Both the position numbers and the translations under genes were made by a program. This document shows, in pieces, positions 42,491 to 48,555 of a DNA stretch of 64,000 bases. Source of the DNA: Klebsiella pneumoniae. GTDB lineage: Bacteria; Pseudomonadota; Gammaproteobacteria; Pseudomonadales; Pseudohongiellaceae. The notes beneath the pieces are model-generated. The model was not told the origin of the DNA and did no database searches. It saw only the letters and a list, made by a program, of their open reading frames with translations. Positions within the stretch are counted from its first letter, which is position 1. Each line of letters opens with the position of its first letter. The stretch spans positions 1 to 64,000 of the forward strand of contig CAMDML010000003.1 in NCBI GenBank assembly GCA_945902215.1, read 5' to 3'.

Positions 42491-43582
42491 GTGGATACGT
42501 TGACAGTAGCGCTAGGTGGCAGAAGTTATCCGATTCACATCGGAGAGAACCTGCTCGCGCGTGGCGACTTACTGCGTCCGCATATCAAGAGCGGTCAGGT
42601 CTGTATCGTTACCAATGAAACCGTTGCTCCTTTGTATCTGGAACAGTTACGGACCTCCCTAAGCGGAGTCAGGGTTGAGGTTGTTATCCTGCCGGACGGG
42701 GAAGCACACAAAACACTGGATACGGTCGCTGTCATCTATGACAAGTTGCTTGCAGCCAGTTTCTCTCGATCCTGCACACTGGTTGCCCTGGGAGGTGGGG
42801 TGATCGGCGATATGACGGGCTTTGCAGCCGCCAGCTACCAGCGTGGTGTGAACTTCATCCAGATCCCTACGACCTTACTGTCCCAAGTCGACTCTTCAGT
42901 GGGAGGCAAGACCGGGGTCAATCGACCCCTCGGCAAGAATATGGTTGGCGCGTTTTACCAGCCGCGTTGCGTGCTGGCCGATACCGCAACCCTAAATACA
43001 CTGCCAGACAGAGAGCTGAAAGCCGGCTTGGCCGAAGTGATCAAATATGGCCTGATCAACAATGCGGCTTTCAATGGCTGGCTCTGGCAGAACATGCCGC
43101 AACTACTGCAGCGTGATCCAGAGCGACTCAAGTACGCCATAAAAGTCAGTTGTGCGGAAAAGGCAGCCATTGTGGCTACCGACGAGACCGAAACCGGAAT
43201 AAGGGCCATCCTGAATCTGGGGCATACCTTTGGCCATGCCATCGAAACTGCCATGGGTTATGGAGAGTGGTTGCATGGCGAGGCGGTGGCCACTGGAATG
43301 GTCATGGCAGCAGACCTCTCCTGGAGGCTTGGTCTACTGTCACAAGCAGACGCACAATCAGTGAAAGCGTTGATATCTGCTGCAAAATTGCCAGTAACTC
43401 CCCCGAAAATAGATGAAAACACATTTATACAGCTGATGAGCAGGGACAAGAAAGCCGATCAGGGAAAGATGAAATTCATCTTGTTGCATGCCATCGGTAA
43501 CGCCAGCATCGAGCAGGGCATACCGACAGAGGTCTTGCGGCGTACCTTGCAAGCAGGGCCGGAATTGACAGTAACGGCCTGA
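42491..43582 (+). CDS. aroB: 3-dehydroquinate synthase
   Basis: NAD- and Zn-dependent conversion of DAHP to 3-dehydroquinate, second step of the shikimate pathway. The 363-residue product has [38 protein letters not shown] and the metal ligands in [10 protein letters not shown] and HGEAVA. Start codon is GTG. C-terminus is of normal length. The gene normally following (damX) is absent; a TonB-receptor relic begins one base after the stop. Confidence 0.96.
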
Positions 43583-43583
43583 A

Positions 43584-43814
43584 TTGCCGGTCATTAGCAT
43601 TGAAGATAACGCGCTGCCAAACTACGTCGTTTGGTCTTTGAACGGTTCGTATGACTCTACCGTTTCCAACACCGAGATGTCGGTATTCGGTACGATCAAC
43701 AACCAGTTGGACAAAGATCCGCCGATCTCTGGCGTAGCCGTTGGTGGTACTTCCTCCATCTTCTGCGACACACTTGGTCGCAGCTACCGCGTGGGTCTGC
43801 GCGCAACCTTCTGA
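43584..43814 (+). pseudogene. 3' relic of a TonB-dependent receptor gene
   Basis: The 76-codon frame resembles the last strands of TonB-dependent outer-membrane receptors: LPNYVVWSLNGSYDS, then INNQLDKDPPISG, and a C-terminal LGRSYRVGLRATF ending in the aromatic residue typical of outer-membrane barrels. Full receptors have 700-1000 residues, so only the tail remains, with no signal peptide. A strong terminator follows, presumably that of the ancestral gene. The family call rests on remembered C-terminal motifs. Confidence 0.7.
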
Positions 43815-43866: not shown

Positions 43867-43900
43867 AAAAAGGCCACATCAAGCGATGTGGCCTTTTTTT
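43867..43900. terminator. Intrinsic terminator before gltB
   Basis: AAAAAGGCCACATC-AAGC-GATGTGGCCTTTTTTT is a near-perfect long stem with a 4-nt loop flanked by A and T runs, so it can work in both directions. It closes the aroK-aroB transcript after the TonB-receptor relic. Confidence 0.93.
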
Positions 43901-44003: not shown

Positions 44004-44042
44004 GGCAAGTAACTTGCCGCATTTTTTTTGCTTGGGTAGAAT
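44004..44042 (+). promoter_or_regulatory. gltB promoter with a palindrome over the -35 box
   Basis: TTGCCG (44014-44019) and TAGAAT (44037-44042) are separated by 17 bp. A perfect palindrome GGCAAGT-A-ACTTGCC (44004-44018) covers the -35 element, the place of an operator. The binding protein is unknown; the sequence differs from NtrC and Lrp sites. Confidence 0.65.
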
Positions 44043-44106: not shown

Positions 44107-47100
44107 ATGAGTAGGGGTCTGTACCATCCTGACGAGTTCAGGGATAACTGCGGTTTCGGCCTCGTGGCACACATCGAAGGCAGGCCGAGTCATGACTTGC
44201 TGCAGTCAGCGATTAGCTCACTGACCTGCATGACGCACCGTGGTGGTATTGCTGCCGACGGTGTCACCGGTGACGGTTGCGGCTTGCTCATGCAGAAACC
44301 CGACAACTTCCTGCGGTCTGTTGCCCGCGATCTCTTTAACGCCACCCTTGCCGAAAATTACGGCATCGGCATGATCTTCCTCAGCCGCGACCGCCAGAAA
44401 GCTGCAACTGCCAAAGTCACACTGGAAACCGAACTACAAGCCCAGGGATTGACTATCGTTGGCTGGCGTCCGGTACCCGTAGACCCGTCTGTGTGCGGCC
44501 GCATGGCGCGCGAAAACATGCCCACCATTGAACAGATTTTGGTCGATGCCCCAGGCCTCGATAAAAAACCCCTCGCCGTAAAACTGTACGTCGCCCGCCG
44601 CAAGGCTGAAATTAAACTGGAAAGTGATCCCGACTTTTACGTTTCTAGCCTGTCGCACTCGGTATTGTCTTACAAAGGGTTGATGATGCCGGCAGACTTG
44701 CCCGCGTTTTATCTCGACCTGAAAAATCCCGCCCTGGAAGTTGCGATGTGCACGTTCCATCAGCGCTTCTCGACCAACACGTTGCCGAAGTGGCCTTTGG
44801 CGCAACCGTTCCGCATGCTGGCGCACAACGGTGAGATCAACACGATCCGCGGCAATCGCAACTGGGCGCTGGCGCGCATCAACAAATTCCGCTCCAAAGC
44901 GATTCCGAACATTGAAGAAATTGCACCGGTGGTTAACTTTACCGGCTCTGACTCCTCGTCGATGGACAACATGCTGGAGCTGCTCGTCACGAGCGGCATG
45001 GATCTGTATCAAGCCATCCGCCTGATCATGCCGCCCAGTTGGCAGAACATGGAGAACATGGATGCCGACCTGCGCAGCTTCTACACCTATGCCTCACTGC
45101 ATATGGAAGCCTGGGATGGCCCTGCGGGCGTTGTACTGACCGACGGCCGTTACGCCGTGTGCGTGCTCGACAAGAACGGCTTGCGCCCGTCGCGCTGGGT
45201 AGTCACGCGCAATGGCTACATAACCGCCGCTTCCGAGATTGGCGTGAATGCCTACAACCCTGAAGACGTCGTGGCTAAAGGGCGCGTGGGGCCGGGTCAG
45301 ATGCTGGTTGTGGATACGCAGGAAGGCAAAATCCTGCACTCGGACGATGTCGCCAACTACCTCAAGTCACGGCAGCCCTATGCAAAATGGGTGACCGAAC
45401 GCGCCAGTTTCGTTGAATCAAATCTGTCCGAAGAAATGCCCCAGCTCGCGCCACTGTCGGCCGAGGAATGCGAAGTGCACATGAAGATGTTCCAGGTGAC
45501 CTTCGAGGAAACCGATCAGGTGCTGCGCCCTCTTGCGGAAAAAGCCGCGGAAGGCACGGGCTCGATGGGCGATGACACGCCGATTGCGGTACTGTCGCGG
45601 CATGTGCGCCCGCTCTACGATTATTTCCGCCAGCAGTTCGCCCAGGTCACGAACCCGCCGATTGACAGTTTGCGTGAAAGCATCGTGATGTCTTTGGAAA
45701 CCCGCATGGGACGCGAGCTGAATATTTTCGAAGAAACGGCGGAACATGCCGACCGCATCATCCTGCATTCACCGCTGTTGTCGCCGGACAAGTTCTACAA
45801 CCTGAAACATCTCAACCGTCCCGGCTATTCGTCGATAGAAATCAATCTCAATTACGCTCCGGCTATCGGGCTTGATCATGCCATCCGCAATGTGATCAAC
45901 ATTGCCGTGGACGCTGCGCGCGCGGGCAAGATGATCATGTTTATCTCCGAGCGCATGCCGCCACAGGGAGAGCTGGTTATTCATGCTCTGCTCGCCACCG
46001 CTGCCATCCATCATCGCCTGAGTGTATTGGGGTTGCGTTGTGATACGAACCTTGTGGTTGAAACCGGCAGCGCGCGTGACTCCCACCAGATCGCCTGCCT
46101 GATCGGTTACGGGGCTACGGCGGTCTATCCCTACATGGCGTTTGATGCGATCGACCGCATGATCAATACCGGCTTGTTGCAGATGGGCGCCATGGAAGCA
46201 CACAAGAATTACCGCAAAGGCATCAACAAGGGACTGATGAAAATCACGTCCAAGATGGGGATCAGCACGATCAGCTCGTATCGTGGCGCGCAGCTCTTCG
46301 AAATCGTCGGCTTGTCCGAACAAGTGACTGCACTTTGCTTCCCGGACGCAGACAGTAAAATCGGAGGTGCAACGTTTATACATCTTCAGCATGACATCGA
46401 ACAGCTGGTGCGTGACGCCTGGCTGCCGCGCAAGAAAATTTCCCAGGGTGGCCTGCTCAAGTACATCCACGGCGGGGAGTACCACATGATCAATCCAGAT
46501 GTGGTGCGTACCGTGCAAGATGCCGTGCGCAGCGGCGACTTCGAGGACTATCGCAAGTTTTCGCAGATCGTTGACAATCGTCCGGTCTCTGCAATTCGCG
46601 ATCTTTTCGGCCTGCGCGAAGACATCACACCTATTTCGGTTGATGAAGTAGAGCCGATCGCAACGATTCTGAAACGCTTTGACTCCGCGGGCATGTCGCT
46701 CGGCGCACTGTCACCCGAAGCGCACGAAGCGCTCGCACAGGGCATGAATCGTCTTGGTGGCCGCTCCAACTCTGGCGAAGGTGGCGAAGATCCTGCGCGC
46801 TACGGCACCGACAAGTCTTCCAAAATAAAACAGGTTGCGTCCGGCCGTTTTGGCGTGACGCCGCATTACCTCGTCAATGCAGAAGTGTTGCAGATCAAGA
46901 TTGCGCAGGGGGCGAAACCTGGCGAGGGCGGCCAATTGCCCGGGAGCAAGGTTAACGCCCTGATTGCACGGCTCCGTTATTCCGTGCCTGGTGTGTCGCT
47001 TATCTCACCGCCGCCACATCATGATATCTATTCGATCGAAGACCTTGCCCAGCTGATCTTTGATCTCAAGCAGGTCAACCCGCAAGCGATGGTGTCGGTC

Positions 47101-48555
47101 AAGCTCGTGTCCGGCCCCGGTGTCGGCACAATCGCGGCCGGTGTTGCAAAAGCCTATGCTGATCTGATCACAATTTCTGGCCATGACGGCGGCACTGGCG
47201 CGAGCCCGCTGACGTCCATTCGCTACGCGGGCACGCCGTGGGAAATCGGTTTGTCGGAAGTACAGCAGGCGCTGCGTTCAAACGATCTCCGCGGCCGTAT
47301 CCGCCTTCAGGCCGACGGTGGACTGAAAACGGGCCTCGATGTAATCAAGGCTGCTATTCTCGGCGCTGAAAGCTTCGGCTTCGGTACGATCCCGATGGTA
47401 GCGATGGGCTGCAAATACCTGCGCATCTGCCATCTGAACAACTGCGCAACCGGGGTCGCGACGCAGGACAAGGGATTGCGTGACAAGCATTTCATCGGCC
47501 AGCCGGAAATGGTCATGAACTATTTCACATTTGTTGCGCAGGATACGCGCCAGTGGCTCGCCAAACTCGGCATACGCAACCTCGTCGACCTGATCGGCCG
47601 CACCGACTTGCTTGTGCGCCTGCCGCCACAGACAGAAAAGCAGGCCAGCCTTGATCTAAGCCGTTTGCTGACGAACGACTACATTCCTGCCGACAAAGAT
47701 CGCTATTGTAATGTGCCACGCAACCCTCCGTCGGACAAAGGCGAGCTGGCCGAACAGATGGTGAGCGACATTCTGCAGGCCATCGAACACAAATCAGGTG
47801 GCATATTCAATTACAAGGTGAAGAACTTCAACCGCTCGATCGGCGCACGCCTGTCCGGCGAAATCGCCAGACGTTACGGCAACCAGGGCATGGCAGATGC
47901 GCCGATCAATCTGAAACTCAATGGTTCCATTGGCCAGAGCTGGGGCGTGTGGAATGCCGGCGGCCTGAACATGCACCTCGTCGGGGAGGCCAACGACTAT
48001 GTCGGCAAAGGCATGGCCGGTGGCAAGCTGGTAGTCGTACCGCCGCCCGGCAGCACCTTCAAATCGCAGGATACCGCGATCATCGGCAACACCTGTCTGT
48101 ATGGTGCAACCGGTGGCAAGTTGTTCGCAGCTGGCACGGCTGGTGAACGTTTCGGTGTACGCAACTCCGGCGCGCACGCCGTCGTCGAAGGTGCTGGTGA
48201 CCACTGCTGCGAATATATGACCGGCGGCATGATCACAGTGCTCGGCCGTACAGGGCACAACTTCGGCGCTGGCATGACCGGTGGCCTTGCCTATGTACTC
48301 GATCTCGACAAGGACTTCGTCGACAAGTACAACCACGAACTTGTGGAAGTGCATCGCATGCGTATCGAAGGCATGGAAGAGTACCGCAGCCATTTACGCA
48401 ACGTGATTGAAGAATTCGTGCAGGAAACCGGCAGCGACTGGGGCAAGCACATCCTGGCAAACTACATGGACTACATCCGCAAGTTCTGGCTGGTGAAGCC
48501 GAAAACGGCGGCCCTGAAGTCGCTGCTCAGCGAAGTCACGCTGAACCCGCAGTAA
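44107..48555 (+). CDS. gltB: Glutamate synthase (NADPH), large subunit
   Basis: Transfers the amide of glutamine to 2-oxoglutarate, the second half of the GS-GOGAT ammonia assimilation cycle. The 1482-residue product starts with a short propeptide; Cys15 ([10 protein letters not shown]) would be the mature N-terminal nucleophile of the class II amidotransferase. The synthase domain follows ([31 protein letters not shown]) with 3Fe-4S ligands in [12 protein letters not shown], and the C-terminal right-handed beta-helix GXGXG domain ([11 protein letters not shown]). All parts are intact. Confidence 0.97.

Follow-up and report, generated by a model that had tools for sequence, protein, structure and literature searches.

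A truncated TonB-dependent receptor gene between aroB and gltB in a genome of the Pseudohongiellaceae

The aroB–gltB interval and its receptor-like frame

The window (the whole 64-kb stretch of DNA analysed) carries aroB, the gene for 3-dehydroquinate synthase, at 42491–43582 on the forward strand (Pfam DHQ_synthase and DHQS_C), and gltB, encoding the large subunit of glutamate synthase, on the same strand at 44107–48555 (Pfam GATase_2, Glu_synthase and GXGXG). The C-terminus of AroB is apparently intact, as its end agrees in length with those of relatives. The aroB stop codon (TGA, 43580–43582) is followed by a single base (A) and then, as originally predicted, by an open frame of 76 codons that starts with TTG (43584–43814, forward strand). 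No Shine-Dalgarno-like sequence was seen by eye ahead of the TTG, and no stop codon breaks the frame. Downstream, at 43867–43900 on the same strand, lies a hairpin with a T run that resembles an intrinsic terminator (fold z of -3.1 for a 91-nt stretch) and corresponds to the strong terminator that had been predicted there. A palindrome, GGCAA-N5-TTGCC, at 44004–44018 (no strand assigned) likely belongs to the gltB promoter; it lies outside the receptor-derived sequence and marks an undisturbed downstream side.

The proposal that the frame represents the last strands of a TonB-dependent receptor is confirmed by protein comparison: codons 3–76 correspond to residues 906–979 of a 979-residue receptor from another member of the genus (G009), with 73% identity. 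Against the window, the G009 receptor gives a single strong match by tblastn (43590–43811, 115 bits); the second-best match in the window is at 21.9 bits, and the top score in 20 mononucleotide-shuffled windows was 29.3 bits. The receptor remnant, consisting of the last 74 codons and the stop, occupies 43590–43814 (forward strand) and retains 7.6% of the G009 receptor (74 of 979 residues). Its nucleotide alignment with G009 begins a few bases past the aroB stop, at about 43589, and the protein match at 43590, placing the putative deletion junction, from the aroB stop to the first receptor-homologous base, at 43583–43589 on the forward strand; the TTG start is not inherited from the receptor. 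The C-terminal end of the barrel (..GRxYRVGLRxxF-stop) is present and was aligned with 42 other receptor tails.

A functional TonB-dependent receptor has a signal peptide, a TonB box, a Plug domain and a barrel of about 22 strands. The 76-codon frame has no signal peptide, TonB box, Plug or complete barrel of this kind, and because the first three and most of the barrel are gone, the remnant cannot act as a receptor. A Pfam scan of the frame alone returned no family, and a search of plasmids with it gave no match. In an NCBIfam scan it aligned with the last 67 positions of the PqqU model, far under the family cut-off. The last ~65 residues of PqqU/YncD (NF041535; PDB 6v81, 9c4o) do resemble the frame (E 7e-5 and E 0.8), but the score is 21 bits where the cut-off is 1200, and the generic barrel end alone is common to both, so this likeness is no evidence for PQQ as a substrate. 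A structure prediction for the G009 receptor, made from a two-sequence alignment, had a mean pLDDT of 24.6 and was discarded as evidence.

The genome to which the window belongs (G000, 2.85 Mb) contains a dozen or more frames, each about 1,000 residues long, that match TonB-dependent receptors, so the loss of one is little surprise; receptor pseudogenes are to be expected where such genes are many. A search of this genome with the frame gave matches at the C-terminus of 12 long frames (982–1187 residues), 11 of them at E<1 (best E 4e-11). The frame is not a copy of any of these, the best-scoring other copy being only 35% identical. With the G009 receptor as query there were 55 matches, all of which, except the window tail, are at or below 42% identity; the tail alone reaches 73%, and no other piece of a G009-type receptor was found anywhere in the assembly. 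This last result also bears on the possibility of an assembly artefact, in which the aroB contig would have been misjoined to the tail of a receptor from elsewhere, and which stands as a counterpoint to a deletion: the assembly is in 107 contigs and, as with its named relatives, is probably a metagenome bin, and it has many receptor tails, 12 besides this one. A misjoin is nevertheless extremely unlikely, given that the tail belongs to the orthologue found in the same slot of G009 and to none of the other receptors of G000, that the remainder of the gene is missing, that the gltB side looks normal, and that another lineage of the genus (G008) has a differently truncated version in the same slot.

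Receptors and receptor fragments in related genomes

In G009 (contig CAISOD010000075.1), aroB, the receptor gene and gltB follow each other in the same orientation, the receptor lying ~460 bases after aroB and ~150 before gltB. The encoded protein has Plug and beta-barrel domains (Pfam). It shares with the window its slot, its orientation, the 73% identity over 74 codons and a terminator-like hairpin right after the stop, but differs from the window in being complete, its 979 codons including Plug and barrel. As expected for a pseudogene, a relative thus has an intact orthologue at the same locus, and the receptor in the window is its truncated counterpart, with the 5' part lost as had been proposed.

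A search of the family (137 genomes, E up to 1e-150) recovered the receptor in six: G009, G011, G032, G057, G058 and G005. In G011 and G032, of the sister genus, it adjoins aroB and is about 59% identical to that of G009; in G057 and G058 the contigs that carry it are short, and they yielded no aroB. Two further sister-genus genomes (G018, G027) have plain aroB–gltB spacers. The copy in G005 is a 50% relative that lies elsewhere in the genome, on contig C111 (locus L185); it has an extended N-terminus and sits behind frames that, by eye, resemble an ECF sigma factor and a FecR-type regulator. In G011, a gene convergent to the receptor (L074:4846-7680, reverse strand) encodes FG-GAP repeats and a UnbV_ASPIC domain, and a similar convergent gene was seen by eye facing the receptor in G032, G057 and G058; it is possibly a partner of the receptor that is missing at the slot in the window's genus. 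The named relatives to which gltB led are metagenome bins of uncultured Gammaproteobacteria, among them Loclat_bin-11825 (G009), Kiruna2_bin-2474, LinL1_bin-0432 and UppL7s_bin-0873, names that read as those of lake samples.

The genus set comprises 11 genomes, and the aroB–gltB interval could be read in 10 (G002 gave only a piece of aroB). One of them, G009, has an intact receptor in the slot, and clear fragments are present in two, G000 (the window) and G008. The latter retains residues 556–648 and ~870–897 followed by ..RVGLRVTF-stop, partly in another frame. Since different parts of the receptor remain in G000 and G008, their final deletions were independent. In G006, the sister of G008, there is a probable receptor end of 11 codons, the score of which was equalled by 1 of 1000 dinucleotide shuffles; the G006 interval as a whole aligns with that of G008 (score 156 vs a shuffle maximum of 61). 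No receptor sequence was recognised in the interval of G001, G003, G004, G007 or G010, and a hairpin in G004 resembles the terminator of the remnant weakly (alignment score 54 vs a shuffle maximum of 49). The G005 interval contains ~1.45 kb of different sequence including a helix-turn-helix protein; short frames there (L078:1336-2516) resemble toxin-antitoxin genes by eye, one of them having an HTH_37 domain. One locus displays stages of loss from an intact gene through a clean 3' tail, scattered fragments and a probable trace to an empty spacer; the gene decay is of an ordinary kind, and the comparison arranges it in a neat series. Literature searches on the combination of TonB-dependent receptor, pseudogene and gene remnant, on damX, aroB and gltB together, and on UBA5109 found nothing.

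The absence of damX and the history of the slot

As the original prediction had noted, the window has no damX between aroB and gltB. In other genera of the family (for instance in G022, G016, G026, G031 and G035) a damX-like gene, combining an AAA ATPase with SPOR, lies directly after aroB. DamX (PRK10905, AAA_22 + SPOR) has in these genera, e.g. in G022 and G016, the place that the frame has in the window, but it is unrelated to the frame in sequence and is missing from the window's genus: a full damX (AAA ATPase with C-terminal SPOR) was found in none of the 11 genus genomes, G009 included. With damX as query, 5 of the 11 had matches, to the ATPase part only, in frames of 310–335 residues; G000 has four SPOR proteins (frames of 219–334 residues) and one 310-residue ATPase frame without a SPOR match. 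The suggestion that damX was lost together with the 5' part of the receptor is rejected on the basis of this distribution. Since G009 keeps an intact receptor without damX, the loss of damX was distinct from the truncation and apparently preceded it, and a missing neighbour need not stem from the same event as the truncation of a gene.

A tree was built from AroB and GltB of 18 genomes (GltB missing in G011, short in G007, and partial in G006 and G032). It groups G009 with G001, G004 and G007, then with G003 (support 96–100), with G000 outside (100), while the branching order of G000, G006+G008, G005 and G010 is weakly supported (37–67). The best-fitting history is that the receptor was gained once, ahead of the separation of the two genera, and then lost several times. 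A receptor gene did arrive at the slot, as had been suggested, but its arrival is older than was supposed, the sister genus also having a receptor adjoining aroB. The tree is built from the two flanking genes, through which transfer may have taken place, and the patchy presence of the receptor, together with the weak inner nodes of this tree (37–67), could be taken to mean that it entered several members of the genus independently, by recombination through the conserved flanks. As a matter of history only, this is unlikely: slot and orientation are identical, the terminator is of the same type, and the remnant is 73% identical to the G009 tail against 49–56% to the receptors of the sister genus, as vertical descent predicts. 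Decidedly doubtful is the further idea that members of the one genus inactivated the receptor repeatedly and in parallel, with different parts left in G000 and G008 and traces or nothing in the others, its loss perhaps being favoured, and that the interval is a site of turnover. If so, loss might have been favoured e.g. because phages or bacteriocins exploited the receptor, and the turnover would include the loss of damX, the gain and loss of the receptor, and the HTH-type cassette in G005.

Origin and evolution of the remnant

Very probably, a complete TonB-dependent receptor gene once stood between aroB and gltB, and the frame is what survives of its 3' end after deletion of the 5' part. In such a course of events the receptor would have stood complete in the slot, damX having already disappeared through its own event, until a deletion removed the spacer behind aroB together with receptor codons 1 to ~905; for an ancestor arranged like G009, this would amount to about 3.2 kb. 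This would have left 74 codons, the stop and the receptor terminator. By-eye comparison supports the last element, as hairpin-like sequences with T runs lie directly 3' of the intact receptors in G009, G011, G032, G057 and G058; we infer that the hairpin at 43867–43900 is the former receptor terminator, which was then taken over by the aroK-aroB transcript and probably now ends it.

In relative-rate counts with four outgroups, the remnant shows 5–7 unique amino-acid changes, compared with 5–7 in the intact G009 tail, and dN/dS between the two is ~0.14. At strongly conserved positions the remnant is changed at one of six (Leu to Gln in the NNLFD motif); 9 of 42 intact tails have as many changes or more, and the excess is not significant. 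Decay itself is invisible, and the truncation alone can be seen. That the remnant evolves no faster than an intact tail points either to a recent truncation or to a constraint that persists on the tail; the former is preferred because there is no free-standing homologue among the matches listed. Constraint would be expected if the frame were a working small gene derived from the receptor tail and translated by re-initiation after aroB, and the openness of the frame, its start one base past the aroB stop, and a dN/dS of ~0.14 at a rate that is not raised agree with this. It is very unlikely all the same, for the low dN/dS is accounted for by the period in which the sequence was part of an intact gene, the TTG and the following codon derive from the junction, and a piece of barrel with no signal peptide would be unable to reach the outer membrane. 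Moreover, the frame had matches in 18 of 57 genomes, and among the matches listed all other frames have at least 149 residues, most of them ~1,000, with no full-length homologue of the 76-residue protein, in line with the original prediction. A short remnant of this kind, lying downstream of a housekeeping gene, can be mistaken for a gene.

On the gltB side, the palindrome lies ~28 bases upstream of a -10-like box (window 44004–44042). A 41-letter pattern for this promoter had no match in 11 genomes; the spacing it required was probably too rigid. In a looser search of the spacer sequences, the palindrome was exact in 8 of the 10 readable genus members, had one mismatch in another, and was absent in G005. 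The other genera examined had no such palindrome near gltB, and it is a candidate operator specific to the window's genus.
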